Under the pieces are notes generated by a model, which worked only from the letters and a program-made list of their open reading frames with translations, did no database searches and had not been told where the DNA came from. Source: Streptomyces eurocidicus (GTDB taxonomy: Bacteria > Actinomycetota > Actinomycetes > Streptomycetales > Streptomycetaceae). From it: a DNA stretch of 64,000 nucleotides. Shown here one piece after another: positions 2,006-21,210 of this stretch. The stretch lies in contig NZ_LGUI01000001.1 in the NCBI RefSeq assembly GCF_002891295.1, positions 682,001 through 746,000 on the forward strand. The letters run 5' to 3'. The number at the start of each line of letters is the position of its first letter. Position 1 is the stretch's first letter. Made by a program: the position numbers and the translations under genes.

Positions 2006-2114
2006 CGGGGGCGCGGTCCCTGTCTTTGGCTTACGGTTCGGTCGTACAGATGTCCCGAAAACTCCCGTAAGGGGAGTCGGGGTTCCCCGCCTCGATGAGA
2101 GCTGGGTGAGAAAA
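2006..2114. promoter_or_regulatory. Divergent promoter region with inverted repeat CTTACGG-N28-CCGTAAG
   Basis: The 109-base gap between the PBP gene (minus) and the histidine kinase gene (plus) must carry both promoters. It contains a perfect 7-base inverted repeat, CTTACGG at 2030-2036 and CCGTAAG at 2065-2071. The arms are 35 bases apart centre to centre, which fits two half-sites on the same DNA face better than an RNA hairpin. I infer a candidate operator, perhaps for the adjacent OmpR-type regulator; nothing in the sequence proves which protein binds. Confidence 0.4.
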
Positions 2115-4015: not shown

Positions 4016-4180
4016 GGACGCCGGTGGAGCGCCGAACGGGGAGGGAGGCCAAACCCAGCCCGGCCGGCGTTTGAGGCCACCGCGCGGAGCGGGGAAGGGC
4101 ATCCAGCCCGTCCGGCGTCTGAGGACACCGCGCGGCAGCGCGGAAGGGGGCCCGGGGGCGGAGCCCCCGGTTACGGGAAG
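3999..4180. repeat. Cluster of three dispersed-repeat cores plus a GC hairpin
   Basis: Three copies of the core CAGCCCGTCCGGCGTTTGAGGAC lie here in direct orientation: 3999-4019 (overlapping the regulator stop codon), 4057-4078 (diverged) and 4104-4126. The last is followed by a CCGCGCGGCAGCGCGG hairpin and then by a strong GC hairpin around 4150-4172 (CCCGGGGGC/GCCCCCGG type). The same module occurs at 5590-5650 and, as an inverted pair, at 27310-27521. Similar units are widespread at gene ends in Streptomyces, from memory; function is not established. The terminal hairpin could end transcription of the two-component operon. Confidence 0.75.
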
Positions 4181-4411
4181 GGGCGGGTAGGGGAAGGCCC
4201 CGCGCAGCGGCACCCGCACCCGCACCCGCACACCGCCCCGCACCCGCACCCGCACCCAGGACCAAAGTCCCACCCCCCACCAGGCCAAAAGCCCCCACAA
4301 CCCCGCCCCACAAGATCGCAACCGTCCGGCAACCCAACCCCATCCCACCCCGCAACCGACCCCCCGCAGGCTCTGGAGCTGTCACCCCCGGCCAGCCCCA
4401 GGAGTCACCTC
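4016..4411. other. Non-coding gap: repeats and hexamer tract
   Basis: The 396 bases between the response regulator and wecB contain no credible gene. The left part is the repeat cluster. At 4211-4257 there is a C-rich tract built from the hexamer CACCCG (three units, an 8-base interruption, then almost three more). From about 4260 to 4380 the plus strand is very C-rich with short A runs, and there is no obvious -35/-10 pair. A wecB ribosome binding site (AGGAG, 4400-4404) closes the region. Confidence 0.6.
4387..4404 (+). repeat. 18-base leader shared with the next gene (copy 1)
   Basis: The 18 bases CCCGGCCAGCCCCAGGAG occur here, ending in the wecB ribosome binding site, and again at 5651-5668, ending in the glycosyltransferase ribosome binding site. 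This looks like a duplication of the translation-initiation leader during assembly of the cluster. It could also coordinate translation of the two genes. Confidence 0.8.
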
Positions 4412-5560: not shown

Positions 5561-5589
5561 GGGTCCTCTCCCCACCCCGCCCCACGCCC

Positions 5590-5650
5590 CCAGACCCCGT
5601 ACCGCGCTGAACGCGCTCGTCCCCGAACGCCGGACGGGCTGAATTCTCAG
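5590..5650. repeat. Dispersed intergenic repeat, single copy
   Basis: The wecB-glycosyltransferase spacer carries one repeat module on the plus strand: a CAGACCCCG box, a short GC hairpin (ACCGCGCTGAACGCGCT) and the core GTCCCCGAACGCCGGACGGGCTG at 5619-5641. It matches the reverse complement of the cores at 3999-4126 with two changes. The repeat separates two genes that otherwise look like one transcription unit. Confidence 0.75.
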
Positions 5651-5668
5651 CCCGGCCAGCCCCAGGAG
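5651..5668 (+). repeat. 18-base leader shared with wecB (copy 2)
   Basis: Exact second copy of the leader found at 4387-4404. Its AGGAG lies eight bases before the ATG at 5676. Confidence 0.8.
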
Positions 5669-5675
5669 CACCCGC

Positions 5676-7040
5676 ATGTTCTCCAGCCCCTTCCTGCTCG
5701 CCTTCCCCTTCCTCCTCCTGATCTGCTTCCTGCTGTACTGGGCGGGGGCCCGGAACGCCTATCTGCGCCGCCCCGCCGTCGAGGACGGCGACCCGGCCTC
5801 CCACGAGTGGCACTTCTTCGTGCCCTGCCGGGACGAGGAGGCGGTCGTGGGCACCACCGTCGAGCGGCTGCGCACCGACCACCCCGGCGCCCACGTCTGG
5901 GTGATCGACGACGACAGCGAGGACCGCACCGGCGCGATCGTGGCCGGGCTCGCCGAGACCGACCGGCGCGTGCACCTCGTCAGCCGCCGCCGGCCCGAGG
6001 CCCGGCAGGGCAAGGGCGCGGCCCTGAACGCCGCGTACGACGAGCTGAACCAGTTCCTGTCCGAGGACACCGACCGCGAGAAGGTCGTCGTGTGCGTCAT
6101 CGACGCCGACGGTCAGCTGGACCCGCGGGCCCTGGCCCGCGTCAGCGGCCCCGCCGGCTTCGGCGACCCGGAGACCGGCGGTGTCCAGGTCAGCGTGCAC
6201 ATGCGCAACGCCGAGGACCCGCGCCCGCTGGCCGACCGCGGCCGGATCCGCAACGCCTTCGCCCGCCTCCTGGTCCGGATGCAGGACATGGAGTTCTCCG
6301 TCTCCAACGCCGGCATGCAGCTGCTGCGCGGCCGCACCGGCTCCGTCGGCCTCGGCGGCAACGGCCAGTTCACCCGGCTCGCCGCCCTGGACCGCATCGC
6401 GGCCGCCGAGCGCCGCCCCTGGCAGCGCGGCGCGCTCCTGGAGGACTACGAGCTCGGGCTGCACATGATCCTCAACGGTGACCGGATAGCCCACATCGCC
6501 GACACCTGGGTCTCCCAGGAGGGTCTGCCGCACGGCCGCCGCTTCCTCACCCAGCGCACCCGCTGGGCCCAGGGCAACCTCCAGTGCGTCCGCTACGCGC
6601 CGCGCATCGTCTCCTCCCGCCACTACGGCGGCAAGGGCGTCCTGGAGACGCTGTACACCTTCCTCCAGCCCGTCGCCCACCTGGTGACCCTCGCGCTGTG
6701 CGCCGTGATGTTCGCCGTGCTCGGCCTGACCGTGGCCGAGGAGGGCTTCGGCGAGGCGTTCGGCGGCATGCTGGCGCTGTGGCCGCTGGTGCTCGTCCTG
6801 GCCGTCGTCTCCGTCCTGCCGTTCGTCCTGTGGGGCCCGGTCTACCGCCGGGACCGCGCGCCCGGCAGCTCGCTGCTGGTCTCCCTGCTGTGGGGCCTGG
6901 CCCTGTGGGTGTACGCGTACCACCTCTTCCCGGCGTCCGCGCGCGGCTTCGTCCGGATGCTGCGGGGCCGCAACGGCTGGGCCAAGACCCGCCGCAACGC
7001 CGAGGTCGTCACCTCCGGCCCGGTGGCCGTCGAAAGCTGA
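5676..7040 (+). CDS. Membrane-embedded processive family 2 glycosyltransferase
   Basis: A 454-residue GT2 enzyme. A hydrophobic N-terminal segment (residues 6-25) precedes the catalytic domain: FVPCRDEEAV, the nucleotide-binding VIDDDSED, the metal-binding DADGQLD, acceptor-site LLEDYELG and the QRTRW (QxxRW) motif typical of cellulose- and hyaluronan-synthase-like polymerising enzymes. Three hydrophobic segments follow (about residues 325-430), suggesting that the polymer is extruded during synthesis. It follows wecB, so UDP-ManNAc or UDP-GlcNAc is a plausible donor; the product is unknown. The ATG at 5676 has AGGAG eight bases upstream in the duplicated leader. Confidence 0.9.
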   Translation: MFSSPFLLAFPFLLLICFLLYWAGARNAYLRRPAVEDGDPASHEWHFFVPCRDEEAVVGTTVERLRTDHPGAHVWVIDDDSEDRTGAIVAGLAETDRRVHLVSRRRPEARQGKGAALNAAYDELNQFLSEDTDREKVVVCVIDADGQLDPRALARVSGPAGFGDPETGGVQVSVHMRNAEDPRPLADRGRIRNAFARLLVRMQDMEFSVSNAGMQLLRGRTGSVGLGGNGQFTRLAALDRIAAAERRPWQRGALLEDYELGLHMILNGDRIAHIADTWVSQEGLPHGRRFLTQRTRWAQGNLQCVRYAPRIVSSRHYGGKGVLETLYTFLQPVAHLVTLALCAVMFAVLGLTVAEEGFGEAFGGMLALWPLVLVLAVVSVLPFVLWGPVYRRDRAPGSSLLVSLLWGLALWVYAYHLFPASARGFVRMLRGRNGWAKTRRNAEVVTSGPVAVES

Positions 7041-7186: not shown

Positions 7187-8386
7187 GTGCGGGTACCGGA
7201 AATCAGCACGCGGATGCACCTGCTGCTGCTCACGGCGTGGACCGTGCTGTGGTTCGCGGTCGTGGAGCCCAGCGGCGGCTTCTCGTGGCACTACCTGCGG
7301 ACCGGCGGCGAGCTGATCTACCAGGGCGGGAACGGCGACGGGACCGGCGGGCTCAACCTCTACGCCCATCACCCCGAGCTCCAGATGGGGCCCATCAGCT
7401 TCCTGGTCGCGGGGCTGTTCAACCCCTTCTCGGAACACATGGGCCAGTTCCTCGCGGCGGCCTTCATGTCCGCCCTGGGCCTGGTCATCGTGGTCCTCGC
7501 GGGCCGCAGCGCCGCCATCCACTTCCTGGGCACCGGCACCAACCACCAGCGGCTGCGGCAGCGCGTCCTCATCGCCGGGCTGGCCTTCATCCCCATGTGG
7601 ATCGAGGTCTCGGTGCGCTTCGGGCACCTGGACGACGTGCTCGCGCTGTTCTTCACCGCGCTGGCCGTCTGGTTCCTGACCCGCTGCAACCCGGCCGCCG
7701 TGGGCATCTGCCTGGCCCTGGCCATGGACTCCAAGCCGACCGCGCTGGCCTTCGTACCGCTGATCCTCGCCCTCCCCCGGGACCGCTGGATGCGGGCGGT
7801 CCTCTGGTGCGCGGCGCTGCTGGCCGTCGCCTGGCTGCCGTTCTTCGTGGCGGCCCCGGACTCCTTCGCCGCGGCGAAGTTCACCATCCCCAACAACCCG
7901 GCCTCCGCGCTGCGCTGGCTCGGCGGCAACACCCCCGTCACCCCCGACTGGGCCCGCCCCGCGCAGGCCGCGCTCGGCCTCGCGCTCGGCGCGATCGCCG
8001 TGTGGCGCGGCCGCTGGGCCGGGGTGGTGCTGCTGGGCGCGAACGCCCGCATCCTCCTCGACCCCAGCGTCTACACCTACTACACCGCCTCCGTGCTGCT
8101 CGGCACCCTGCTGTGGGACGTGTGCGGGCAGCGCCGCCTGGTGCCGTGGTGGAGCTGGATCGCGCTGATCGTGCTCTACGGCAGCGTCTTCGCCGTCCCC
8201 GACGAGTCGGTCAAGGGCCTGATCCGGCTGTGCTTCGTGGCGGTGTCGACGGCGTACGTGCTGTTCTGGCCGCAGCACCGCCGCGGTCGGCGCGGGCCGC
8301 TGCCGGAGGAGGGCGACGCCCTGGTGGAGGGCCCGTGGGGGCCGATGTGGGATCCGAACCGGTCGAGGCCGTGGGCGGCGCGTTAG
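7187..8386 (+). CDS. Polytopic membrane glycosyltransferase-like protein
   Basis: About 399 residues with roughly nine hydrophobic segments and short charged loops. It resembles GT-C fold lipid-linked sugar transferases of the GT87/DUF2029 type: an early acidic loop after the first membrane span, the conserved-looking VSVRFGHLDDVLALFF with the DD pair, and SKPTALAF. No precise family can be fixed by eye. The GTG at 7187 is preferred because GGGAG lies four bases upstream; an ATG at 7148 would add 13 residues but has no ribosome binding site and lies within the hairpin loop. It is the third gene of the wecB-glycosyltransferase group, and a role in adding or exporting a sugar is inferred. Confidence 0.72.
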   Translation: MRVPEISTRMHLLLLTAWTVLWFAVVEPSGGFSWHYLRTGGELIYQGGNGDGTGGLNLYAHHPELQMGPISFLVAGLFNPFSEHMGQFLAAAFMSALGLVIVVLAGRSAAIHFLGTGTNHQRLRQRVLIAGLAFIPMWIEVSVRFGHLDDVLALFFTALAVWFLTRCNPAAVGICLALAMDSKPTALAFVPLILALPRDRWMRAVLWCAALLAVAWLPFFVAAPDSFAAAKFTIPNNPASALRWLGGNTPVTPDWARPAQAALGLALGAIAVWRGRWAGVVLLGANARILLDPSVYTYYTASVLLGTLLWDVCGQRRLVPWWSWIALIVLYGSVFAVPDESVKGLIRLCFVAVSTAYVLFWPQHRRGRRGPLPEEGDALVEGPWGPMWDPNRSRPWAAR

Positions 8387-8414
8387 ACACTCCGCCGGAA
8401 GCGCGACGGAGTGC

Positions 8415-8467
8415 CGCGCCCCGTCAGGGGCGCGGGGAACTGCGCGACAAGCCCCCACCGGCCCGCA
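8415..8467. repeat. Second dispersed Streptomyces-type repeat (CGCGCCCC hairpin element)
   Basis: CGCGCCCC (8415-8422), loop GTCA, GGGGCGCG (8427-8434), then GGGGAACTGCGCGACAAGC and a CCCCACCGGCCC tail. I recognise this arrangement from memory as a very common Streptomyces 3-prime-end repeat of unknown function. It lies 28 bases after the membrane protein stop. Confidence 0.6.
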
Positions 8468-8491
8468 GGGACAGGGCCGGTCGAGACCTGC

Positions 8492-8527
8492 AAACGGCCC
8501 CCGTACCCATGGGTACGGGGGCCGTTT
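8492..8527. terminator. 36-base perfect palindrome between convergent genes
   Basis: A fully palindromic 36-mer with arm AAACGGCCCCCGTACCCA and its exact complement. It lies between the membrane protein gene (plus) and valS (minus). A and T at the outer ends give a stem followed by T residues in both directions, so it should act as a bidirectional terminator. Confidence 0.85.
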
Positions 8528-8547
8528 CAGAACCCGGCGGCGCCGAC

Positions 8548-11181
8548 TCAGCCCTGCGGCAGAGCCGCCAGCTGCGCACTGATCCGCTCGATGTCCGCGT
8601 CGGCCGTCTCCAGCCGCTTGCGGATCTTCTCCACGGCGGCCTCGGCGGCCTTGGCGAGGAACGCCTCGTTGCCGAGCTTGGCCGTGGACTGCGCCTTGTC
8701 CTTCTCGGCCGCGGCCAGTGCCTTGGTCAGGCGCTTGCGCTCGGCCTCCACGTCGATCGTGCCGGAGAGGTCGAGGGCGACGGTGGCCCCGGCGACGGGG
8801 AGCGAGGCGGTGGCGGCGAAGCCCTCGCCGGCCGGCTGGAGGCGCAGCAGCGAACGGATCGCGTCCTCGTGGGCCGCGACCGCCGTGCCGGTCAGGTCCA
8901 GCCGGGCCGGGACCTTCTGGCCCGGCTGCAGGCCCTGGTCGGAGCGGAAGCGGCGGACCTCGGTGACGACCTGCTGGACCGTCGCGATCTCCTGCTCGGC
9001 GGCCGCGTCACGGAAGCCGCTGTCCTTCGGCCAGTCGGCGATGACGACGGACTCCTTGCCGGTGAGCGTGGTCCACAGCGTCTCGGTGACGAAGGGCACG
9101 ACCGGGTGCAGGAGCTTGAGGGTGACGTCGAGGACCTCGCCCAGGACGCGGGCCGAGACCTCGGCCTCGGCGCCGCCCTTCTGGAAGGTGGTCTTGGACA
9201 GCTCGACGTACCAGTCGAAGACCTCGTCCCACGCGAAGTGGAACAGCGCGTCCGAGAGCTTCGCGAACTGGTAGTCGTCGTAGAGCGCGTCCACCTCGGC
9301 GACGACGGCGTTGAGGCGCGACATGATCCAGCGGTCGGTGGCCGACATCTGCTCGACCGGCGGCAGCTCGCCCTCGACCGTCGCGCCGTTCATCAGCGCG
9401 AAGCGCGTGGCGTTCCAGATCTTGTTGGCGAAGTTGCGCGAGCCCTGGACCCAGTCCTCACCGATCGGCACGTCGACACCGGGGTTGGCGCCGCGGGCGA
9501 GGGTGAAGCGGACGGCGTCGGAGCCGTACTTGTCCATCCAGTCCAGCGGGTTGACCGCGTTGCCGAAGGACTTCGACATCTTCTTGCCGAACTGGTCGCG
9601 GACCATGCCGTGCAGGGCGATGGTGTGGAACGGCGGGGTGCCGTCCATCGCGTACAGGCCGAACATCATCATCCGGACGACCCAGAAGAAGAGGATGTCG
9701 TAGCCGGTGACGAGGACGGAGTTCGGGTAGAACTTCTCGACGCTCTCGGTCTTCTCCGGCCAGCCGAGGGTGGAGAACGGCCACAGGCCGGAGGAGAACC
9801 AGGTGTCCAGGACGTCGGTCTCCTGGTGCCAGCCCGCGCCGCTCGGCGGCTGCTCGTCCGGGCCGACGCAGACCATCTCGCCGTCCGGGCCGTACCAGAC
9901 CGGGATGCGGTGGCCCCACCACAGCTGGCGCGAGATGCACCAGTCGTGGAGGTTGTCGACCCAGTCGAAGTAGCGCTTCTCCATCTCCTGCGGGTGAATC
10001 TTGACCTTGCCGTCGCGAACGGCGTCGGCGGCGGCCTTCGCCAGCGGGGCGGTCTTCACCCACCACTGCATGGACTGACGCGGCTCCAGCGTCGTCTTGC
10101 AGCGCGAGCAGTGGCCGACGGAGTGGGTGTACGGGCGCTTCTCGGCGACGATCCGGCCCTCGGCGCGCAGGGCGCCGACGATCGCGGAACGGGCCTCGAA
10201 GCGGTCCAGGCCCTGGAAGGGGCCGTGGACGGTGATGACGCCGTGCTCGTCGAGCACGGTGAGGCTCGGCAGGTCGTGCCGGCGGCCGATCTCGAAGTCG
10301 TTCGGGTCGTGGGCCGGGGTCACCTTGACGGCGCCGGTGCCGAACTCGGGGTCGACGTGGGTGTCGGCGACGACCGGGATCGAGCGGTCCGTGAGCGGCA
10401 GCTTGATCTGCTTGCCGATCAGGTGGGCGTAGCGCTCGTCGTCCGGGTGGACGGCCACGGCGGTGTCACCGAGCATCGTCTCGGCGCGGGTGGTGGCCAC
10501 GACGAGGGTTTCCTCGCCCTCGCCGTAGGTGATGGAGACGAGCTCGCCGTCGTCGTCCTGGTACTCCACCTCGATGTCGGAGATGGCGGTCAGGCAGCGC
10601 GGGCACCAGTTGATGATGCGCTCGGCGCGGTAGATCAGCTCGTCGTCGTAGAGCTTCTTGAAGATCGTCTGGACGGACTTGGACAGGCCCTCGTCCATGG
10701 TGAAGCGCTCGCGCGACCAGGCGACGCCGTCACCCAGGCGACGCATCTGGCCGGAGATCTGGCCACCGGACTCGGCCTTCCACTGCCAGACGCGCTCGAT
10801 GAACGCCTCCCGGCCGAGGTCGTGACGGGACTTGCCCTCCTTGGCCAGCTCGCGCTCGACCACGTTCTGCGTGGCGATGCCCGCGTGGTCCATGCCGGGC
10901 TGCCACAGGACCTCGAAGCCCTGCATGCGCTTGCGGCGCGTGAGGGCGTCGATCAGCGTGTGCTCGAAGGCGTGGCCCAGGTGGAGGGAGCCCGTGACGT
11001 TCGGCGGCGGGATGACGATGGTGTACGGCTCTTTGTCGCTCTTCGCGTCGGCCTCGAAGTAGCCCCGCTCTACCCAGCGCTCGTACAGCGGCCCCTCTAC
11101 ATCGGCCGGCGCGTACTGGGTCGGCAGTTCGGGGTTGCTGTCGTTCGGCCCGCTGTCGGGGCGCTGAGTGTTCTCGGTCAC
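8548..11181 (-). CDS. valS: Valyl-tRNA synthetase
   Basis: An 877-residue class I aminoacyl-tRNA synthetase that charges tRNA-Val. It has the HIGH-type motif HLGH (residues 67-70, within [14 protein letters not shown]), the KMSKS loop (534-538), a CP1 editing region ([11 protein letters not shown] and following), and a C-terminal coiled coil ([22 protein letters not shown]) typical of ValS. Length is normal for bacteria. The GTG at 11179-11181 begins MTENTQRP. In Streptomyces folC usually follows directly; here the envelope island and terminators intervene, so valS appears monocistronic. Confidence 0.97.
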
Positions 11182-11407
11182 GGGAGAAGTCTACGGGGGC
11201 GTGCGCGGGGGTTACGAATCCATTCGGGGCGGCGTGCGGGGGGTGCGGACGGGGCGTGCGGGCCGTGGGGTGCGGGCCTTGCCGATCAACTGTTCCGAAA
11301 CCGTTGCCGCCTCGTGGTAAAGCCCCCGTAAGAGATCAGGAAGGATGATCGGACTGTCACGAGACTCCTGCCACTCCCCCCACGGACGCGAAGAGAGACA
11401 CCCCGCG
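11182..11407. promoter_or_regulatory. Divergent promoter region valS / paralogue array
   Basis: A 226-base gap with start codons facing away on both sides, so promoters for valS and for the four-paralogue operon must lie here. No convincing -35/-10 pair or inverted repeat stands out, and no T-box-like leader is visible before valS. Confidence 0.4.
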
Positions 11408-12358
11408 ATGAGCTACCACCAGCCGGGCCCCTACGGCCAGCAGCCGCCACAGCAGCCGGGCCCGTACGGCCAGGGCGGCGCCCCCGGCCAGCCCGGCTAC
11501 GGCTACCCGCAGCAGGCCCCGCCGCCCCCGCCGCCGTACGTGGGCGGCGGCCCGCAGGCTCCTTACGGCGCCCCCCAGCAGCCGGGCCCGTACCAGCAGG
11601 CGCCCTACGGCCAGCAGCCCGGGATGCCGGGCCAGTACCCGCCGCCGGTGCCGCCGCAGGGCGGGGGCAAGGGGAAGGCGATCGGGATCACGATCGGCGC
11701 GCTGGTGGTCGTGGGCGCGCTCGTGGGCGGTGCCGTGTGGTTCATGGGCGGGAGTGACGGGGAGGTGGCGCCGTACACGATGGTGATGCCGGACAAGTTG
11801 CTGGACGGCCAGTTCACCAAGGGTGGAAGCGCGGGCGCCCCCGGCGGCCAGGACTCCGAAAGCCTCACCAATGACAAGGATGCCAAGGAGATGGGCATCA
11901 ACAACGGCACCGGCGTCAAGGGGGCCTACACCAATGCCCAGAAGCAGGCGCTCATGGTCGTGGGCGCCTACGGCGAGCTCCCCGACCCCGAGAAGTCGGT
12001 CGACGCGATGATCGCGAAGATGGACGAGGGCGAGAAGAAGAACCAGGCCGTCGTGAAGGGTGCCCAGGTCGAGACGGTCACCGCCTGGACCGCCTTCTCG
12101 CCGGGCAACTTCGACGGCGCGGTCATGAAGTGCGAGACGAAGAAGTCCAACTACTCCGTCGGCGCCATCTCCAGCAGCGCCGAGGTCAGCGTCTGCATCT
12201 GGGGCGACTCCAGCGCCGTGGGCGTCGTCCGGCACCAGGTCGCGAAGACCACTTCTCCTTACGGAGGCAGCTCCGCTGCCACCGGCAGCGTGATGTCCGC
12301 CAAGGACCTCGCCGAGGCCACCGCCAAGATCCGCAACGAAGTCCGCAAGAACAAGTAG
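11408..12358 (+). CDS. Membrane-anchored paralogue 1: Pro/Gln/Gly-rich N terminus, two-cysteine outer domain
   Basis: 316 residues, function unknown. Residues 1-86 are a low-complexity PGQY-rich cytoplasmic tail with repeated PGPYGQ units; residues 91-113 are one membrane span; the rest is predicted extracytoplasmic. The outer domain has landmarks shared with the next three genes: YTMVMPDKLLDGQF just after the membrane, a GAY..AQKQALMVVGAYGELPDP strand region, a conserved pair of cysteines (MKCETKK and VCIWGD) likely to form a disulfide, and a C-terminal amphipathic AEATAKIRNEVRK helix. ATG at 11408. First gene of a probable four- or five-gene operon. Confidence 0.82.
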   Translation: MSYHQPGPYGQQPPQQPGPYGQGGAPGQPGYGYPQQAPPPPPPYVGGGPQAPYGAPQQPGPYQQAPYGQQPGMPGQYPPPVPPQGGGKGKAIGITIGALVVVGALVGGAVWFMGGSDGEVAPYTMVMPDKLLDGQFTKGGSAGAPGGQDSESLTNDKDAKEMGINNGTGVKGAYTNAQKQALMVVGAYGELPDPEKSVDAMIAKMDEGEKKNQAVVKGAQVETVTAWTAFSPGNFDGAVMKCETKKSNYSVGAISSSAEVSVCIWGDSSAVGVVRHQVAKTTSPYGGSSAATGSVMSAKDLAEATAKIRNEVRKNK

Positions 12359-12423
12359 CCCCCCAAGTAGCCCCCCTCCCCACACGTAACAGCACAGCGC
12401 GCCGAGCCCCGAGGAACCCCCAC

Positions 12424-13194
12424 ATGAACGACAACCAGCCGGGGCAGGTCCAGCCGCCCTCCGCCGCGTCCGCCGCCACCGCCCCGCGAAGCGGCGGCGG
12501 AGGCAGGGGGAAGGGCAAGGGCAAGGCCATCGGCATCGGGGCCGGCGCGCTCGTCGTGGCGGGCGCCCTCGTGGCAGGGGGCGTCCTCCTCTTCGGGGGC
12601 GGGGACGACAGCGAGGACGCGGGCTCGTACACGCTCGTGATGCCGGACACGCTCGTGGACGGCGCGTTCAAGAAGGACTCCTCGGGCGGCGACGCCAAGC
12701 CGGAGGAGCCGAGCGACTCGGACGTCGAGGAGATGAAGACGTTCGGCATCGAGAACGCGGACGGCGCCGACGGCTCGTACACCAACGCCGAGAAGCAGAG
12801 CCTCCGCGTCGTGGGCGTGCACGGGGACATCCCGGACCCCGTGAAGAGCGTGAACGACCTGCTCGCCAAGACCCAGAAGCAGGAGAAGGACGAGCAGAAG
12901 GTCCCGGGGGCGAAGACGGAGACGACCCCGTACCAGGACTACCACCCGGCCGGCTTCAAGGGCGCGGTGCTGAAGTGCACCGCCTCGAAGACCACGTACA
13001 CCTTCGACGGCGGGGCCCCCATGGGCAACGCCCTGGAGACCAGCACCTGCGTGTGGGGCGACAAGGGCGTCCTCGGCATGGTCACGGTCGACAACATGCA
13101 GGGCGTCGCGGAGGGCAAGACCAAGGGGCTGTCCGCGAAGGAGCTGTCCGAGGTCACGGCCAAGGTCCGCACCGAGATACGCAAGAAGAAGTAG
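12424..13194 (+). CDS. Membrane-anchored paralogue 2: two-cysteine outer domain
   Basis: 256 residues, same family as its neighbours. The N-terminal tail is short (about 34 residues, with basic GRGKGKGK before the membrane), residues 35-57 span the membrane, and the outer domain repeats the family landmarks YTLVMPDTLVDGAFKKD, SYTNAEKQSLRVVGVHGDIPDP, LKCTASK, STCVWGD and LSEVTAKVRTEIRKKK. It is the closest relative of paralogue 1 over the outer domain but has lost the PGQY repeats. It starts 65 bases after paralogue 1 and ends 24 bases before paralogue 3, consistent with an operon. Function unknown. Confidence 0.82.
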   Translation: MNDNQPGQVQPPSAASAATAPRSGGGGRGKGKGKAIGIGAGALVVAGALVAGGVLLFGGGDDSEDAGSYTLVMPDTLVDGAFKKDSSGGDAKPEEPSDSDVEEMKTFGIENADGADGSYTNAEKQSLRVVGVHGDIPDPVKSVNDLLAKTQKQEKDEQKVPGAKTETTPYQDYHPAGFKGAVLKCTASKTTYTFDGGAPMGNALETSTCVWGDKGVLGMVTVDNMQGVAEGKTKGLSAKELSEVTAKVRTEIRKKK

Positions 13195-13218
13195 CACGAA
13201 CCTGAGGGGGACCCCCAC

Positions 13219-14238
13219 ATGAGCCACCACCAGCCGGGACCGTTCGGTGCGCCGCAGCCGCCGCAGCAGCCGCCGTCGTCGAACCCGTACGGACAGCCGG
13301 CCCAGCCCGGCCCCGGCCAGGGGTACCCCCCGCAGCCGCCGTACGGGGCGCCGCAGCCGAACCCGTACGGCGGCGGTTCGCCGCAGCAGCCGCCGAACCC
13401 GTACGGGCAGCCTTACGGAGGTCCGGGCGCGCCCGGGCAGTACCCGCCGCCGATACCCCCGCAGGGCGGCGGCAAGGGCAAGACGATCGGCATCGCGGCC
13501 GGCGCGGTCGTGCTCGTCGCGGCGATCGTGGCGGGCGTCGTCCTCGTAGCCGGGGGCGGCAAGAGCGACGGCAAGGACGACAAGGCCGACGGCGGGAACT
13601 CGGCGAGCCCCTCGGCCGGCACCTCCTCCGCCCCGCCCGCTCCGGCGAAGAAGTACAAGCTCGTCGCGCCCGACGTGGTCGTGGGCGACTACAAGAAGGA
13701 CACCGCGAAGTCCACGGGCGGGTTCGACTCCAAGGACCTGAGCAACCTCAGGCTGCTGGGCGTCGTCAATCCGCAGAACGTCACGGGCTCCTACAAGTCC
13801 GGTGGCGCGGAGAAGACCTCTCAGAAGCTGCTCCGGTTCACCGGTGCCTGGGGCGACGACGTCCGGGACCCGGAGGCGGTCGTGGACGGCCTGTTCAAGG
13901 ACATCCGGAACAGCGCCTCCAAGGACACCGACAAGGACTCGAAGACCGAGTTCGAAGGCAGCCCGCAGCGGATGTCCACCGCGGGGCTGGGCGACGCGGT
14001 GCTGAAGTGCCAGATGAGCAAGTGGTCGACGCCCGGTTCGCCCGGTTCCAAGGAGCTGCGGATGCCGCTGTGCATCTGGGCCGACAAGACCACGGTCGGC
14101 ACGGTATTCGCCCTGGACGCGTCCCTGATCGTGCAGGGCCTGGACCTGGACCTGGAAGAGGCCGCCAAGCGGACGGTGCGGCTGCGGCAGGACGTACGCG
14201 TGGAGACGACGGAGGAAGCCGGGACGCGGGCGAGCTGA
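13219..14238 (+). CDS. Membrane-anchored paralogue 3: Pro/Gln-rich N terminus, two-cysteine outer domain
   Basis: 339 residues. Residues 1-86 are again PQGY-rich with NPYGQP repeats, residues 89-111 span the membrane, then a linker rich in G, K, D, S and P precedes the outer domain. Landmarks are present but diverged: YKLVAPDVVVGDYKKD, a SQKLLRFTGAWGDDVRDP strand region, LKCQMSK and PLCIWADK. The C terminus extends past the family helix (RVETTEEAGTRAS). A ribosome binding site (GAGGGGG) precedes the ATG. Function unknown. Confidence 0.82.
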   Translation: MSHHQPGPFGAPQPPQQPPSSNPYGQPAQPGPGQGYPPQPPYGAPQPNPYGGGSPQQPPNPYGQPYGGPGAPGQYPPPIPPQGGGKGKTIGIAAGAVVLVAAIVAGVVLVAGGGKSDGKDDKADGGNSASPSAGTSSAPPAPAKKYKLVAPDVVVGDYKKDTAKSTGGFDSKDLSNLRLLGVVNPQNVTGSYKSGGAEKTSQKLLRFTGAWGDDVRDPEAVVDGLFKDIRNSASKDTDKDSKTEFEGSPQRMSTAGLGDAVLKCQMSKWSTPGSPGSKELRMPLCIWADKTTVGTVFALDASLIVQGLDLDLEEAAKRTVRLRQDVRVETTEEAGTRAS

Positions 14239-14312
14239 CCGGACTCGGGAAGTCCGGAGTACCGGACGCCGCGGAAAGCCGCCCCTGAAGGGCTCATCGA
14301 CGCCATCATGAA

Positions 14313-14993
14313 ATGCCACGGCAGGTAGACGATGACGAGCGGGAGTTTCACGATGCCGGTCCGATGCCCGCGTGGAGATCGCGAAGTGACGCGCTGAACA
14401 GGGCCGCGCTCGTCACATCGGTGGCGGGGGCCGCGGGGGCCGTGACCGCGGCGCTGCTCCTGCTGGGCGGCGGGGGCGACGAGGACGGTGCCCCCGCCAC
14501 CCGGCTCGTCACCCCGCCGGCCGTCGCGGACGGCGCGTACCGGCTGGTGGCGGACACCGCGGCCCTGGAGAAGGAGGGCATCGCCGTCCAGCCCGGCATG
14601 CCGGAGGGCACGGTGTCCGTGCTGGCCCGCTACGCGCGCGCGGACGACCCGAAGGCCACCCTGTCGCTGTCCGGGGCGTACGGCGGCGTGGGCGAGCCGA
14701 AGGCCGTCCTGGACGGCATGCTGAAGGGCTTCGAGGAGGGCCCGGGCTCCCCCGCCGTGGTCTCGGCCCGCCACGTCCTCACCCCGGACGGCCCGGAGGG
14801 CCCGGCCCTCACCTGCGAGGTCGTCCGCCTCGACGGCCGCACGTACGCCCCGGCCTGCGCCTGGGCGGAGAAGTCGGACGCCGCGCTGCTGATCGGCTTC
14901 GACCCGCGGAAGACCTCGGCGGCCGGGGTGGACGAGACGGCCTTCGCGAAGGTCACGGCCAGGGTCTACCGGGACGTCCGCGGAACGGGCTGA
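14313..14993 (+). CDS. Membrane-anchored paralogue 4: most diverged member
   Basis: 226 residues from the ATG at 14313; a later in-frame ATG at 14364 is possible and neither has a strong ribosome binding site. The tail is short and acidic instead of PGQY-rich, the membrane span is at about residues 31-52, and the outer domain keeps the family order: TRLVTPPAVADGAY, ATLSLSGAYGGVGEP, TCEVVRLD and PACAWAEK (the two cysteines), and FAKVTARVYRDVRG. It is the most distant paralogue and ends the tandem array. Function unknown. Confidence 0.75.
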   Translation: MPRQVDDDEREFHDAGPMPAWRSRSDALNRAALVTSVAGAAGAVTAALLLLGGGGDEDGAPATRLVTPPAVADGAYRLVADTAALEKEGIAVQPGMPEGTVSVLARYARADDPKATLSLSGAYGGVGEPKAVLDGMLKGFEEGPGSPAVVSARHVLTPDGPEGPALTCEVVRLDGRTYAPACAWAEKSDAALLIGFDPRKTSAAGVDETAFAKVTARVYRDVRGTG

Positions 14994-15044
14994 CCGTGCC
15001 CGGGACGGTTGCGCCTCCGGACGGGGCCGGTGTGGACTGCGCCT

Positions 15045-15581
15045 ATGACTGCCCCCCGTGTGCTGTACCTGATCGCGTGCGCCGCCTCGCCCACGCAGCA
15101 TGTCCGTACCGGCGTCGAGAAGGCCCAGGCCGCCGGGTGGGAGGTGTGCCTGGTCGTGACGCCCTCCGCCCTGCGGTGGATCGAGCGGGACATGCCAGAG
15201 CTGGAACGGCTCACCGGGCATGTGGTGCGCAGCGCGCACAAGCTGCCGGGCGAGCCGGACGTGCTGCCGCCGGCGGACGCCATGGTCGTCGCGCCCGCGA
15301 CGTTCAACACGATCAACAAGTGGGCGGCGGGCATCAGCGACGCCCTCGCGCTCAGCCTCGTCAACGAGGCGGTCGGGCTGCGACTGCCACTCGTCGCGCT
15401 GCCGCACCTGAGCGCCGCCCAGGCGGCCCACCCGGCCTTCGGCCGCAGCGTGGCGCTCCTGCGGGAGTACGGGGTGAAGGTGCTGCTCGGGGAGGACAGG
15501 GGCGGCCTCACCGCGCCCGGGGCCGACCCGGCCGCCTTCCCCTGGGACACGGCCCTGGAGGCCCTTCCCTCGGTCTTCTAG
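15045..15581 (+). CDS. Small flavoprotein (Dfp/phosphopantothenoylcysteine decarboxylase-like fold)
   Basis: 178 residues resembling the HFCD/flavoprotein fold: VLYLIACAASPTQHV at the N terminus, ADAMVVAPATFNTINKWAAGISDALAL (the FMN-binding PAT..N..K pattern), and a C-terminal LPHLSAAQAAHPAFGRSVALLREYGVKVL. It is shorter than CoaBC and lacks the synthetase half, so it is probably an FMN-binding decarboxylase or oxidoreductase of unknown substrate. ATG at 15045, 51 bases after paralogue 4 on the same strand, so it may belong to that operon. Confidence 0.78.
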   Translation: MTAPRVLYLIACAASPTQHVRTGVEKAQAAGWEVCLVVTPSALRWIERDMPELERLTGHVVRSAHKLPGEPDVLPPADAMVVAPATFNTINKWAAGISDALALSLVNEAVGLRLPLVALPHLSAAQAAHPAFGRSVALLREYGVKVLLGEDRGGLTAPGADPAAFPWDTALEALPSVF

Positions 15582-15617
15582 GGCCGACGCCCCGGACTGC
15601 CGCGCGGCCACATCGCA

Positions 15618-15648
15618 GAGGGCGCCCGGCACTCGCCCGGGCGCCCTC
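15618..15648. terminator. Bidirectional hairpin terminator
   Basis: GAGGGCGCCCGG (15618-15629) pairs exactly with CCGGGCGCCCTC (15637-15648) around a 7-base loop, with TT after it. It separates the flavoprotein gene (plus) from the convergent Rpn-like gene (minus). Confidence 0.8.
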
Positions 15649-15662
15649 TTCCAAGCTAACGC

Positions 15663-16541
15663 TCAGCTCTCGTCCTCGAAGAGTTCGTCGGCCGTGGAGA
15701 CGGTGAGAGCGCGGTCCATCCAGCGCTCCAGGGTGTGCAGGTCGGTGCAGCTCGTGATGCGCTCCCGGGTCTCAGCGGGCACGAGGATTCCGCGCTTCTC
15801 CAGTACACGCAGCACCATCTGCGCGGATCCCTTGGCCTCGCCCTCCAGGAGCGTCTCCTCGATGAGGGTGCCACGGCCGGGGAAGTAGGTACGGATCATC
15901 AGGTTCCTCCAGGTCTTCCTCGCCGGGGATTCCCCCAGGCCGATCTCCAGCAGTTCCGAGTAGTACGCCACAGACTCTTTGTCAGCCGTTCCCAGGGCAC
16001 GCGCCAGCGCATCCAGTATGGCCGGAGCATCCTGGCTCCGGCCATGTGTCATGGCGGAGAAGGTCGCCATGGCCAGGTCCTGGGCAGCCTCCTCCGGGTC
16101 GATGATCGGCGGAACGTTGCCGGGCCCCAGAACCAGTGGGTGCACAGACAGCGCCGTCCAGCCGTCGGGGCCGAGATCGAACGGCCCGGCCGCCCAATCC
16201 GCGGTCGCCTTGTCCTGGCAGACCACCAGCAGCAACGCCGGGCAGTCGTACTTGGCCTTCAGATACGCCAGGTAGTACGCCCAGCTGACCGCCTTGTCCC
16301 CGTCGCGGCGCCCCTGCGCCTCAATGGCCAGGAGAAGACCACCACTCCCATCAGGCGGCTCGATGCGCAGCACGCTGTCCACGCGCCGCTCCAGCGGTCT
16401 GATCTCCGTGGCGTCCGCCGAGAGCACTTCGACGACCGCATTCCGCGGTAACGGCACGCCCAGAATCCGGAACACCGGCTCGAGCAGCTCGGGGCGTTCC
16501 TGGAAGATCCGGTGCGATGCCTCGTGGTTCGCTGTAACCAT
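15663..16541 (-). CDS. Rpn/PD-(D/E)XK nuclease-like protein
   Basis: 292 residues. The N-terminal half resembles Rpn/YhgA-type recombination-promoting nuclease folds: [24 protein letters not shown] supplies a D...ExQ pattern in place of D...ExK, followed by [27 protein letters not shown]. The C-terminal half is helical, with a [29 protein letters not shown] coiled region that also occurs in such proteins. It is a single gene with no transposase companion, and its base composition is somewhat less GC-rich than its neighbours, which hints at acquisition. ATG at 16539-16541. Nuclease activity is inferred from fold only. Confidence 0.65.
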
Positions 16542-16648
16542 GATCGGACCATAGAAGTGCCGTGGGAGCCACGTCCGGCAATCCGCGCCCGACCACCCGT
16601 TCGAGCATCGAGTCGTTCGCCAGTTCTACCGACATCAAGCAAGAGAAA

Positions 16649-16675
16649 GGGCGCCCGGCATAACGCCGGGCGCCC
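16649..16675 (-). terminator. clpX terminator hairpin
   Basis: GGGCGCCCGGC (16649-16659) and GCCGGGCGCCC (16665-16675) form a perfect 11-base stem with loop ATAAC, 27 bases past the clpX stop on the minus strand. Confidence 0.8.
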
Positions 16676-16702
16676 CCTCACCTACGCACAAGCGGCAAGC
16701 GC

Positions 16703-17980
16703 TTACGCGCTCTTCTCGTGCCGCTCGTCCTTCGGGACGATGCGCGGCACCAGCGTCGGGTTGACGTTGGAGTGGACGACGTCCGCGGTGATGACCACGC
16801 GGGCCACGTCCTTGCGGGACGGGACCTCGTACATCACCGACATCAGGACCTCTTCCATGATCGCGCGCAGGCCGCGCGCGCCCGTGCCGCGGAGGATCGC
16901 CTGGTCGGCGATGGCCTCCAGCGCCGGGCGGTCGAACTCCAGCTCGACACCGTCGAGTTCGAAAAGCCTTTGGTACTGCTTCACCAGGGCGTTGCGCGGC
17001 TCGACCAGGATCTGGAGGAGGGCCTCGCGGTCCAGGTTGTGGACGGAGGTGATGACCGGGAGGCGGCCGATGAACTCGGGGATCATGCCGAACTTCACCA
17101 GGTCCTCGGGCATGACCTCCTGGAACTGGTCGCTCGCCTCGATCTCCCGCTTGGAGCGGATCGTGGCGCCGAAGCCGATGCCCTTGGCACCCGCGCGGGA
17201 CTCGATGATCTTCTCCAGGCCGGAGAAGGCGCCGCCCACGATGAACAGGACGTTCGTCGTGTCGATCTGGATGAATTCCTGGTGCGGGTGCTTGCGGCCG
17301 CCCTGGGGCGGGACCGAGGCCGTGGTGCCTTCGAGGATCTTCAGCAGGGCCTGCTGGACGCCCTCGCCGGAGACGTCCCGTGTGATCGACGGATTTTCGC
17401 TCTTACGGGCGACCTTGTCGATCTCGTCGATGTAGATGATGCCGGTCTCGGCCTTCTTGACGTCGTAGTCAGCGGCCTGGATCAGCTTCAGCAGGATGTT
17501 CTCGACGTCCTCGCCCACATAGCCGGCCTCCGTGAGGGCCGTGGCGTCGGCGATGGCGAAGGGCACGTTCAGCATCCGGGCCAGGGTCTGGGCCAGCAGC
17601 GTCTTGCCGGAGCCCGTGGGACCCAGCAGCAGGATGTTGGACTTCGCCAGCTCGATGCCGTCGTCGCGGTGACCGCCGTTCTCACCGGCCTGGACGCGCT
17701 TGTAGTGGTTGTAGACGGCCACGGAGAGGGCCTTCTTGGCCGCTTCCTGGCCGACGACGTAGCCCTCGAGGAACTCGTAGATCTCGCGGGGCTTGGGAAG
17801 CTCCTCCCAGCGCACCTCCGAGGTCTCCGCGAGCTCTTCCTCGATGATCTCGTTGCAGAGGTCGATGCACTCGTCGCAGATGTACACACCAGGACCCGCG
17901 ATGAGCTTCTTCACCTGCTTCTGGCTCTTGCCGCAGAACGAGCACTTGAGCAGGTCGCCGCCGTCACCGATGCGTGCCAC
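16703..17980 (-). CDS. clpX: ATP-dependent Clp protease ATP-binding subunit ClpX
   Basis: A 425-residue AAA+ unfoldase that feeds substrates to ClpP. The N-terminal zinc-binding domain has four cysteines in CSFCGKSQ and CDECIDLC. The AAA+ module has Walker A GPTGSGKT, Walker [10 protein letters not shown], the pore loop GYVGEDV and sensor-1 [12 protein letters not shown]; the IGF-type ClpP-docking loop appears as IGFGATI. GTG at 17978-17980. It is downstream of clpP1-clpP2 but separated by 178 bases with two hairpins, so it probably has its own promoter. Confidence 0.97.
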
Positions 17981-18071
17981 GAGGTGCTTCCCCTTCGCCT
18001 GGGATCCGCCTTGCTCTGCGAACCCGGGTGCTTGCCTATCGACGGTACCTTGCCGGGCCCCCCGAGCGGGC

Positions 18072-18100
18072 CCCCCTTGGACCTACTCGGTCCAAGGGGG
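18072..18100 (-). terminator. Hairpin between clpP2 and clpX
   Basis: CCCCCTTGGACC (18072-18083) pairs perfectly with GGTCCAAGGGGG (18089-18100) around TACTC. Together with a nearer hairpin (GGACTTCC 18127-18134 with GGAAGTCC 18139-18146), it should end the clpP1-clpP2 transcript before clpX. Confidence 0.75.
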
Positions 18101-18158
18101 CGGCCGGCGGCACGGTGGTTCCGGACGGACTTCCGGACGGAAGTCCCACCGGAAACGG

Positions 18159-18848
18159 TCAGGCCGTAACGGACGTCTTGCGCGTCGAGACGATCTGGTC
18201 GACCAGACCGTACGCGAGCAGCTCGTCCGCGGTGAGGATCTTGTCGCGCTCGATGTCCTCGCGGATCTTCTCGATCGGCGTGGTCGAGTGCTTGGCCAGC
18301 ATGTCTTCGAGCTGGGCGCGCATCCGCAGGATCTCGTTGGCCGCGATCTCCAGGTCGGAGACCTGGCCCCGGCCCGTCTCGCTGTACGGCTGGTGGATCA
18401 GGACGCGGGCGTTCGGCAGCGCCATCCGCTTGCCGGGGGTGCCGGCGGCGAGCAGCACGGCCGCGGCGGAGGCCGCCTGGCCCATGCAGACCGTCTGGAT
18501 GTCGGGCTTCACGAACTGCATCGTGTCGTAGATCGCCGTGAGCGCGGTGAAGGAGCCGCCCGGGCTGTTGATGTAGATCGAGATGTCGCGGTCCGGGTCC
18601 ATCGACTCCAGGCACAGCAGCTGCGCCATGACGTCGTTGGCCGAGGCGTCGTCGATCTGCACGCCCAGGAAGATCACCCGCTCCTCGAAGAGCTTGGCGT
18701 ACGGGTCGTACTCGCGCACGCCCTGCGAGGTGCGCTCGACGAAGCGCGGGACGATGTAGCGGGACTCGGCGCGGGGGCCGGTCGACTGCGACTGGGGGCC
18801 GGTGTAGAGGCCGCTGCCGGCGTAGTTGTTCATCTGCTTCTTCACCAT
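18159..18848 (-). CDS. clpP2: ATP-dependent Clp protease proteolytic subunit ClpP2
   Basis: 229 residues from the ATG at 18848; an in-frame ATG at 18833 with GAAGAAG before it is an alternative. Catalytic Ser lies in GQAASAAAV, His in VLIHQPYS, Asp in EDIERDK. The N terminus has the actinobacterial ClpP2 opening ([35 protein letters not shown]). In actinobacteria ClpP1 and ClpP2 form a mixed tetradecamer used with ClpX or ClpC. It lies 50 bases downstream of clpP1 on the same strand. Confidence 0.96.
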
Positions 18849-18898
18849 CCTGATGGCGTTCGGTGGGGCGGGGTTTCGCTGCGCGGGCGCGCCGGGGC

Positions 18899-19516
18899 TC
18901 AGGCCCCGGTGCCGCCCCCGCCCGGAACGCCTGCGGCGGTCTTCATGACCTCGTCGATGAGGCCGTAGTCCTTGGCCTCCTCGGCGGAGAACCAGCGGTC
19001 GCGGTCGGAGTCGTGCGTGACCTGCTCGACGGTCTGACCGGTGTGCAGCGAGGTCAGCTCCGCCATCCGCTTCTTGGTGTACAGCAGCCGCTCGGCGTGG
19101 ATCTTGATGTCCGAGGCGGAGCCCGCCAGGCCCGCGGAGGGCTGGTGGATCAGGATCTCGGCGTTCGGCAGGGCGAAGCGCTTGCCGGGCGTACCGGCGC
19201 TCAGCAGGAACTGCCCCATCGAGGCGGCGAGGCCCATGGCGATGGTCACCACGTCGTTCTTGATGTACTGCATGGTGTCGTAGATCGCCATGCCGGCCGT
19301 GATCGAGCCGCCCGGGCTGTTGATGTAGAGGTAGATGTCCTTGTCCGGGTCCGCGGCAAGGAGGAGCAGCTGCGCCGTGATCTTGTTGGCGATGTCGTCG
19401 TCGACCGGCTGGCCGAGGAAGATGATCCGTTCCCCGAGCAGCCGGTTGTAGACCTGGTCGCCGAGGCCACCGAAGCTCGGCTCGCCGGCGGCGGCGGAAG
19501 GCATCAGATTCGTCAC
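18899..19516 (-). CDS. clpP1: ATP-dependent Clp protease proteolytic subunit ClpP1
   Basis: 205 residues from the GTG at 19514-19516, which has AGGTGG a few bases upstream. An upstream GTG at 19613-19615 also has a good site (AGGGGAG) and would give 238 residues, so the start is uncertain. Catalytic Ser in GLAASMGQ, His in ILIHQPSAG, Asp in HDSDRDRW. Landmarks [21 protein letters not shown] and [12 protein letters not shown] are typical. First gene of clpP1-clpP2, preceded by a ClgR-type operator at 19687-19700. Confidence 0.95.
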
Positions 19517-19686
19517 GTATCCACCTGCTCGTTGTTCGACGGCCGCGAGCCGTCTCAGCGTCTTCTTCACGGGGCGGGGTGCGGGCGCGTCGTCCGGGCT
19601 TCCGCGTCGCGCCACGGGACTCCCCTGCCCCCGTATCTACGGACCCTAACGCGCTGGTAGGCGGGCGCCATCCCGCATCAGGAACT

Positions 19687-19700
19687 GTTCGCTCTGAGCG
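19687..19700. promoter_or_regulatory. ClgR-type operator upstream of clpP1
   Basis: GTTCGC-TCTGA-GCG matches the published Streptomyces ClgR pattern GTTCGC-N5-GCG, as I recall it. It lies about 70 bases upstream of the longer clpP1 start and 170 bases from the shorter one, in the expected promoter. ClgR is the known activator of clpP1-clpP2 in Streptomyces. A possible -10 (TAGGGT on the minus strand, about 19640-19650) lies between it and the gene. Confidence 0.75.
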
Positions 19701-19729
19701 CAGGTTCACCAGGGGTCCGGAGACCACGG

Positions 19730-19774
19730 CGGGCCCGGCCGCGACACCCCGGTGGGGTGTCGCGGCCGGGCCCG
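19730..19774 (-). terminator. Trigger factor terminator
   Basis: A perfect 21-base stem (19730-19750 with 19754-19774, loop GGT), the longest hairpin of its kind in the window. It is 45 bases past the tig stop and separates tig from the clpP1 promoter. Confidence 0.88.
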
Positions 19775-19818
19775 TTTCCGTCACCGGTCGCGCGGACCGG
19801 TCACGAGGTGGGTGAGGC

Positions 19819-21210
19819 TCAGGCCTCGGTCTTGTCCTCGGTGCCCTCGGCGGCCTCGACGACCTCGGTGGCGGCCTCGACCGTCTCGGCGGTCTCGTCC
19901 TCGTCGTCCAGGTCGACGACCTCACCGTTGGTGTCCAGGACCTTGGCGACCTCGACGACGGACGCCAGGGCCTTACCGCGGGCGACCTCGCCGACGAGCA
20001 TCGGCACCTGGCCACCCTCGACGACGGCCTGGGCGAACTGGTCGGGGCTCATGCCGGAGGACTGGGCACGGCGCATGAGGTGCTCGGTGAGCTCCTCCTG
20101 GCCGACCGACAGCTTCTCCTTGTTGACGATCTCGTCAAGGATGAACTGGGTCTTGATGCCCTTCTCGGCCTGCTCCTTGAGCTCGGCGTCGAACTCCTCG
20201 GCGGACTTGCCCTGGATCTCCAGGTACTTCGCCAGGTCCAGGCCCATCTGGCCCAGCTGGTGGTGCTCGAGGTTGTGCTTACGAGTGTTGACCTCGTCCT
20301 CGAGCAGCTTCTCCGGCATCGGGACCTCGACCAGCTTGATCAGCTCGTCGAGGACCTTCTCCTGGGCCTGGGTGGCCTGGTCGTACTTCTTCATGCGGGC
20401 GAGGCGCTTGGCGCTGTCCGCGCGCAGCTCCTCCAGGGTGTCGAACTCGCTCGCGAGCTGGGCGAACTCGTCGTCCAGGGCGGGCAGTTCGCGGGCCTTG
20501 ACGGCGGTGACGTCGACCTTGACCTCGGCCTCCTTGCCCTCGGCGGAGCCGCCCTTGAGCTCGGAGGTGAAGGTGGCGGTGCCGCCGGCCTCGAGACCGG
20601 TCACGGCCTCGTCGATGCCCTCGAGCAGCTGACCCGAGCCGATGGTGTAGTCGACGCCCTTGGCGACGCCGTCCTCCAGCACCTCGCCGTCGACCTTGGC
20701 CTCCAGGTCGACGGTGACGATGTCGCCCTCGGCCGCGGCGCGCTCGACCGGGGAGGTCGTGGCGAAGCGGTCGCGGAGCTGCTCCAGCGACTTCTCGATG
20801 TCCTCGTCGGTCACCTCGGCGGCGTCGACGGTGACCTCGATGCCGGAGTAGTCCGGGATCTCCAGGGTCGGGCGGATGTCGACCTCGGCGGTGAAGGAGA
20901 GCAGCTCGCCGTCCTTCAGCTCCGTGATGTCGACCTCGGGCTGGCCCAGCGGGTTGAGGTCGGCCTCGTTGACCGCCTCGGTGTAGAACTTCGGGAGCGC
21001 GTCGTTGACGGCCTCTTCGAGGACCGCACCGCGGCCGAACCGCTGGTCGATGACGCGGGCCGGGATCTTGCCCTGACGGAAGCCCTTCACCGTGACCTGC
21101 TGGTTGATCTTCTTGTACGCCGCGTCGAGGCTGGCCTTGAGCTCCTCGAAGGGCACCTCGACAGTGAGCCGAACCCGAGTCGGGTTCAGGGTCTCCACGG
21201 CGCTCTTCAC
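19819..21210 (-). CDS. tig: Trigger factor (ribosome-associated chaperone)
   Basis: 463 residues, normal for the family. Trigger factor binds the ribosome exit tunnel and assists folding of new chains. The ribosome-binding signature appears as [12 protein letters not shown] (residues ~45-56), the PPIase domain covers the [15 protein letters not shown] region, and the C-terminal helical arms follow. The acidic tail ([13 protein letters not shown]...) is longer than in E. coli and usual in actinobacteria. The GTG at 21208-21210 has AGGAG eight bases upstream. Placement next to clpP1-clpP2-clpX is the standard bacterial order. Confidence 0.97.

Follow-up and report, generated by a model that had tools for sequence, protein, structure and literature searches.

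The question raised by this locus is what kind of protein is encoded by four tandem plus-strand genes of Streptomyces eurocidicus, and whether the four products belong together. The genes (11408-14993) lie in a stretch of 64,000 nucleotides, hereafter the window (contig NZ_LGUI01000001.1, positions 682,001 to 746,000), from a genome of 7.93 Mb with about 72% GC, and they are sited between two minus-strand genes which we take from their sequences to be valS and clpX. The closest named relatives of the array genes are from Streptomyces. An earlier reading of the letters alone (the sequence-only reading) had singled them out as its best candidate for an undescribed system. Here we show that the four genes are paralogues, that their family is spread through the genus and keeps a syntenic place, and that its copy number at this place varies. 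With regard to function, we consider the chances evenly balanced that the array is made of copies of a valS-clpX locus gene whose product would carry a Mog1/PsbP-like outer domain, act as a sensor or adaptor and do its core job without need of its tail.

Paralogy and predicted topology of the four genes

It was claimed from the sequence that the four same-strand genes are tandem paralogues, and this is borne out by pairwise BLASTP and by a genome profile search. Gene 1 aligns with gene 2 at 43% identity (E 3e-50), with gene 3 at 26% (E 1e-14) and with gene 4 at 24% (E 2e-7), and gene 3 aligns with gene 4 at E 2e-6; these four pairs were the ones compared. Moreover, when a profile of the four outer domains was searched against the whole genome, only the four array places matched at E<=10, which puts the tandem paralogy far above chance. 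The order of tail, single span and outer domain described for these genes holds in all four as judged by hydrophobicity and charge. In 51 of the 55 family members scored (57 were taken, and 2 were excluded for having no clear span in the scanned stretch), the tail side of the span carries the higher net charge, indicating that the tail is inside the cell. The predicted topology is therefore an N-terminal cytoplasmic tail and a domain outside.

Conservation is concentrated in the outer domain. The two cysteines which had been noticed in the window are invariant in alignments of 53 and 95 outer domains. Two other features ascribed to all four genes stood only in part. The YxLVxPDxLxDG motif is good in genes 1 and 2 but degenerate in gene 3 (YKLVAPDVVVGD) and nearly gone in gene 4 (TRLVTPPAVADG), so that only its V, P and G are invariant across the array. 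As for the C-terminal basic helix, the predictions for genes 2 and 4 contain a helix, whereas the C-terminus is clearly basic in genes 1 and 2 only.

The valS-clpX locus and the drift of its gene

Of 101 genomes sampled from the genus, 98 carry the family (E<=0.001), and at the rank of the family, at a threshold of E<=0.01, 143 of 150 genomes matched, representing 15 of 17 genera. In a sample of the order all 104 genus members matched and only 1 of the 15 others did so, weakly (E 9.6e-4), and in a sample of the phylum 3 of 287 non-genus genomes matched. The copies sit between a divergent valS and a convergent clpX in all 21 genus regions that hold valS, the 30 genus regions examined having been chosen from the matches; nine other regions, picked for weaker matches, hold neither gene. 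Among 80 named loci, which are the best 80 of 301 relatives by a window-like profile and lean to close relatives, valS and/or clpX is in view in 78 and both are in 65, with some loci ending before both flanks appear and with three of the 80 being the same genomes as L042, L043 and L049. The 65 loci with both flanks hold one, two, three or four copies in 48, 7, 8 and 2 cases, respectively, and one of the two-copy loci, L159, is possibly a split gene. S. lincolnensis (L175) and S. noursei (L130) are examples of species with a single copy at this place. The family also has a second conserved place in Streptomyces with common neighbours (L062, L064, L065 and L071), where a crude home-made gene caller was used; Pfam recognizes two AurF-like proteins, a TetR regulator, a kinase with a PQQ propeller, NlpC/P60 and FtsW/RodA among the neighbours at L065.

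More distant relatives were sought with a profile built from five copies outside the genus (A7). Its comparison with the Streptomyces profile (A5) by hhalign gave a probability of 98.2 and an E of 3.8e-14 over 146 columns, and the A7 search recovered the window family at E 2.2e-5. By these profile and reciprocal tests, the array family is kin to a wider actinobacterial family of predicted two-cysteine ectodomains. In a sample of the class, A7 matched 38 of 296 genomes, of which 15 belong to the genus (out of 28 sampled) and 23 do not, and of the latter some of the weakest may be chance matches; the one in G722 (L251) looks spurious. The distant homologues include single-span proteins with proline-rich tails. 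Two proteins from two other families of the phylum, L194 (499-2004) and L195 (1085-2026), have a zinc-ribbon-like N-terminus (CxxC pairs, below the Pfam cut-off) followed by a span and a two-cysteine outer domain.

The place looks older than the genus, since further actinobacterial families have homologues next to clpX or valS. Among genomes outside the family, G645, G712, G696, G854 and G642 carry a homologue that is convergent to clpX, and G407, G773 and G642 one that is divergent from valS; in L261-L263 the valS-matching gene is only 28-30% identical and may be another synthetase. A ClpX search of 30 further genomes of the class, a sample which was not blind as 12 of them had earlier A7 matches, found clpX in 29, one of these without a 3' flank. 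A model made from 16 distant members then detected a homologue beside clpX in G768, G632, G615 and G651 (E 3.6e-16 to 1.2e-6). In G610 only a similar tail lies beside clpX, and at the remaining clpX flanks of this set, including those of the PknH_C-bearing G247 and G305, no homologue was found. It looks as if the locus is old and the outer domain has changed so much as to be hardly recognizable.

The history of the copies was followed in a tree of 84 outer domains, which was made by a quick method with Shimodaira-Hasegawa-like approximate likelihood ratio test (SH-aLRT) support only and comprised all copies of multi-copy loci and every third single-copy locus, sequences below 130 residues being dropped. 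Genes 1, 3 and 4 cluster with copies of other species (SH-aLRT 98, 100 and 98, respectively). Gene 2 is on a long branch (1.16) of uncertain placement; it falls within a clade of 19 rows to which gene 1 also belongs (SH-aLRT 96), and its best identity to any row of the tree is 45%, so that no row is a close orthologue. The six relatives of gene 3 are each the first copy of their own array, the L110 and L111 arrays are represented in neither the gene-3 nor the gene-4 clade, and both membership and order of the arrays differ between species.

These results bear on the proposal, made in the sequence-only reading, of a complex of different subunits, that is, a hetero-oligomeric membrane assembly in which the four paralogues would be joined through their outer domains. 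The close tandem packing on one strand (intergenic gaps of 65, 24 and 74 bases) would suit it, as would the lack of terminator-like sites on the plus strand of 11150-16000 and the persistence of gene 1, 3 and 4 relatives as separate types in other species. The promoter and terminator scan as a whole told little, with 0 promoter-like sites and 4 terminator-like sites (2.0 expected), the latter all on the minus strand. However, a single copy is the state of 48 of the 65 two-flank loci, the set and order of the arrays vary, and gene 2 has no close orthologue in the tree; we regard such a complex as distinctly unlikely. For all 12 between-species pairs the nonsynonymous rate (dN) was lower than the synonymous rate (dS), with ratios of about 0.11 to 0.66, and gene 2 against gene 1 gave 0.515 and 0.536. 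Across the regions examined, identity to the window is 93-98% for clpX and 79-95% for valS. The drift and variable copies of the array genes, set against such well-kept neighbours, indicate loose constraint rather than fixed subunits, and speak for a loosely held gene that is multiplying and drifting.

Predicted fold of the outer domain and the role of the tail

The outer domains of gene 2 (predicted local distance difference test, pLDDT, 89.4; predicted template modelling score, pTM, 0.86) and gene 4 (pLDDT 94.1, pTM 0.89) were modelled and compared with known structures. With VIA-align, the best match of gene 2 was the PknH ectodomain (4esq; Z 10.8, root mean square deviation (rmsd) 4.1, 157 aligned), followed by 4tmd (Z 9.9), TplEi (9.3), TiME (9.3), Tli4 (9.2) and human MOG1 (8.9), and further by DcrB (8.9), Apa (8.5), cyanobacterial PsbP (8.2) and LpqN (7.8). 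For gene 4 the best was DcrB (Z 8.8, rmsd 3.6, 118 aligned), ahead of cyanobacterial PsbP (8.3), TiME (7.9), Mog1 (7.7), PknH (7.6, rank 10) and LpqN (7.3). The best Foldseek match was PsbP for both, with E of 3e-3 for gene 2 and 9e-3 for gene 4. As both models are headed by the same fold class, a Mog1/PsbP-like fold is likely, at moderate scores. In both models the invariant cysteines are on two strands of one predicted hairpin at near-equal distance from its turn (Cys 119 and 143 round turn 128-132 in gene 2, Cys 109 and 123 round 115-117 in gene 4). Their position on neighbouring strands is what a cross-strand disulfide would need, and we infer that such a bond may brace the outer domain.

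The fold comparison also brings up the possibility of a homogeneous immunity array, in which anchored outer domains would block the secreted or contact toxins of competitors and copies would be kept for breadth. TplEi and Tli4 are immunity proteins of the type VI secretion system, to which gene 4 is also alike (Z 6.4 and 6.5, respectively), and tandem paralogues on one strand that differ in number from relative to relative, as here, are among the features of polyimmunity loci listed in an excerpt of PMC3482391; the long branch of gene 2 would fit as well. On the other hand, the chromosomal place is fixed and usually holds one copy, no toxin gene was recognized among the adjoining open reading frames inspected, though no dedicated toxin search was made, and dN stayed below dS in every pair, though whole-gene averages may mask single fast sites. 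We consider this explanation very unlikely.

The claim that the genes belong to no named family agreed with all searches. No family of Pfam or NCBIfam covers the four genes in the window proteins, the 53 family members searched with Pfam and the 95 searched with NCBIfam gave scattered one-member matches only, and a sequence search of the PDB found nothing credible. A literature search of titles and beginnings of abstracts found, among the matches listed, no paper describing the family, whose S. coelicolor orthologue is presumably SCO2616.

PknH_C (PF14032, 4esq) shares with the array proteins an outer domain after one span, the order from inside to outside and a predicted fold that is similar for gene 2 (Z 10.8) and less clearly so for gene 4 (Z 7.6). 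Membership was rejected (hhalign probability 0.1, no Pfam hit), and the PF14032 profile found nothing in the window genome. PknH_C has four invariant cysteines where the array family has two, the PknH sensor domain having two disulfides according to an excerpt of a 2012 review (PMC3601408), and PknH is a kinase whereas the Pfam search detected no kinase domain in the array proteins. Lpp-LpqN (PF10738, 6e5d) was likewise rejected in spite of its Mog1/PsbP-like fold, as no sequence kinship was seen (profile comparison probability 1.3) and a PF10738 search of the window genome found none; LpqN is extracytoplasmic. The TiME soluble domain (7cu8, 7cu9), Apa (5zx9) and the Rv0999 orthologue (4tmd) are actinobacterial proteins of similar predicted fold (Z 6.5-9.9), but they match in fold only, at 6-13% identity, and no function was carried over from them. 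PsbP, CyanoP, Mog1 and DcrB share the fold class of the models, with identities of 5-14% among the rows listed, and the photosystem role of PsbP and the Ran role of Mog1 do not apply to the array proteins. GltJ (NF033761) resembles them in a proline/glycine-rich region, a compositional match of 26 bits against a cut-off of 450.

The tail types that had been distinguished are confirmed by the fraction of proline, glycine, glutamine and tyrosine (P+G+Q+Y), which is 0.85, 0.43, 0.78 and 0.16 in the tails of genes 1 to 4. In the wider family 171 different members were taken, 2 of which were too short to score; of the 169 scored, 154 reach a fraction of >=0.6 in the stretch before the span, and the tail is missing in the other 15, including gene 4 and its two nearest orthologues. 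By eye, PGQY tails are also present on three other membrane proteins of the genome, namely L002, which is a multi-span protein, L006, which has a long outer part, and L004 (677-1924, minus strand), which has a single span and a different outer domain with cysteine residues. Since the tails occur on unrelated membrane proteins, they are not a mark of the array family. The distant homologues L192 and L231, likely lipoproteins which appear by eye to have a lipobox, keep the outer part but lack the tail. Some clpX-side proteins of other families (L228-L230 and L281) have tails that share, by eye, a motif like ILPGVPLPxW.

A special role of the PGQY tail in condensation or binding, as was suggested at first, is thus not supported. 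Such a role would be central if the protein were a structural or localisation factor, its tail clustering it at growth sites and its outer domain being merely a wall anchor. The frequency of the tail in the family and the FtsW/RodA, NlpC/P60 and kinase genes near its second conserved place would agree with this. Yet the same tail type is found on unrelated membrane proteins, it is absent from gene 4, its nearest orthologues and the likely lipoproteins, and conservation is carried by the outer domain; a localisation factor therefore seems to us unlikely. The low-complexity tail is probably dispensable for the core job.

Genomic setting and a possible function

The features of the locus are collected in the table. 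The flavoprotein gene that follows the array in the same direction had also been noted. We found a relative of it in 0 of 30 loci and in 1 of 80 named loci, some of which are cut off, which does not support its being part of the system. The 292-aa gene had no match in a Pfam search, and at 7 of 80 named loci a relative lies close to the array, in one orientation or the other. Left of valS, at 551-7037 of the window, are genes for a penicillin-binding protein, a UDP-GlcNAc 2-epimerase and a family 2 glycosyltransferase. No RNA element reached the gathering threshold in 8000-20000. Carriage on plasmids was rejected, the one weak match being in an Embleya record of 5.7 Mb.

Table. Positions of the array genes, their predicted parts and the neighbouring genes in the window
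Feature	Position	Strand	Remarks
Gene 1	11408..12358	+	316 aa; PGQY-rich cytoplasmic tail (predicted), one span, outer domain; orthologues in other Streptomyces
Gene 1 membrane span	11681..11737	+	Residues 92-110, strongest hydrophobic stretch
Gene 1 outer domain	11768..12355	+	Cys codons 12131-12133, 12194-12196
Gene 2	12424..13194	+	256 aa; short tail, one span, outer domain; long branch in gene-1 clade
Gene 2 membrane span	12535..12591	+	Residues 38-56, strongest hydrophobic stretch
Gene 2 outer domain, predicted Mog1/PsbP-like fold	12622..13191	+	Cys codons 12976-12978, 13048-13050
Gene 3	13219..14238	+	339 aa; PGQY-rich tail, one span, outer domain; relatives are first array copy elsewhere
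Gene 3 membrane span	13492..13548	+	Residues 92-110, strongest hydrophobic stretch
Gene 3 outer domain	13645..14235	+	
Gene 4	14313..14993	+	226 aa; tail short and acidic, one span, outer domain; diverges most of the four; start codon uncertain
Gene 4 membrane span	14409..14465	+	Residues 33-51, strongest hydrophobic stretch
Gene 4 outer domain, predicted Mog1/PsbP-like fold	14490..14990	+	Cys codons 14814-14816, 14856-14858
valS (presumed)	8548..11181	-	Left flank, conserved, divergent from array
clpX (presumed)	16703..17980	-	Right flank, conserved, convergent to array; two clpP genes next (Pfam)
Flavoprotein gene	15045..15581	+	Adjoins array; PF02441, E 7.7e-13; not conserved with array
292-aa gene	15663-16541	-	Between flavoprotein gene and clpX

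In the explanation that we prefer, the product of each gene would cross the membrane once, its N-terminal tail lying in the cytoplasm and a compact Mog1/PsbP-like domain on the outer side. The gene would be an old actinobacterial one of the locus between valS and clpX which was multiplied in some Streptomyces, and its copies would be paralogues under loose constraint rather than obligate subunits of one complex. The outer domain would bind an envelope component or a partner protein and act as an extracytoplasmic sensor or adaptor, as suggested by its conservation, by its anchoring through either a span or, as judged by eye, a lipid, and by a fold that is used by extracytoplasmic binding domains. 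The binding role is proposed on the analogy of proteins that are alike in fold and location, such as the PknH sensor domain, TiME, LpqN and Apa; in the case of PknH, the excerpt of the 2012 review describes a cleft which suggests a small-molecule ligand of unidentified nature (PMC3601408).

Several points weigh against this explanation. The profile from outside the genus misses 13 of the 28 genus genomes in the class sample, so that for any one genome the deep link is a weak one. Neither model has a Foldseek match at E<=1e-3, and the best VIA-align score of gene 4 is barely above the Z of 7-8 which, by the program's own note, is typical of models without a clear match. There is no kinship to PknH_C or LpqN at the level of sequence profiles, so that function is not transferable from either of them, and the flanking genes give no hint of what the array does.

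A bolder version would make the family a near-universal envelope sensor or adaptor of the Streptomycetaceae, which has been at the valS-clpX place since before the split of several actinobacterial families. Its fast-drifting Mog1/PsbP-like ectodomain would read a wall or membrane ligand, its condensate-prone tail would signal, and in some lineages the paralogues would form a repertoire for different ligands or competitor toxins. We hold this version to be quite improbable.

What is new here is the family and its valS-clpX locus, both undescribed in the literature and databases searched, whereas the predicted fold and architecture are of a known kind. A family that is found in nearly every genome sampled from the genus, and that has a fixed place in nearly all loci checked, is yet without an entry in Pfam or NCBIfam. 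For PknH, too, the question of what is sensed is given as open in the excerpt of the 2012 review (PMC3601408). The single-copy orthologues at the valS-clpX locus offer a clear target for asking what actinobacterial outer domains of the Mog1/PsbP-like kind sense or carry.

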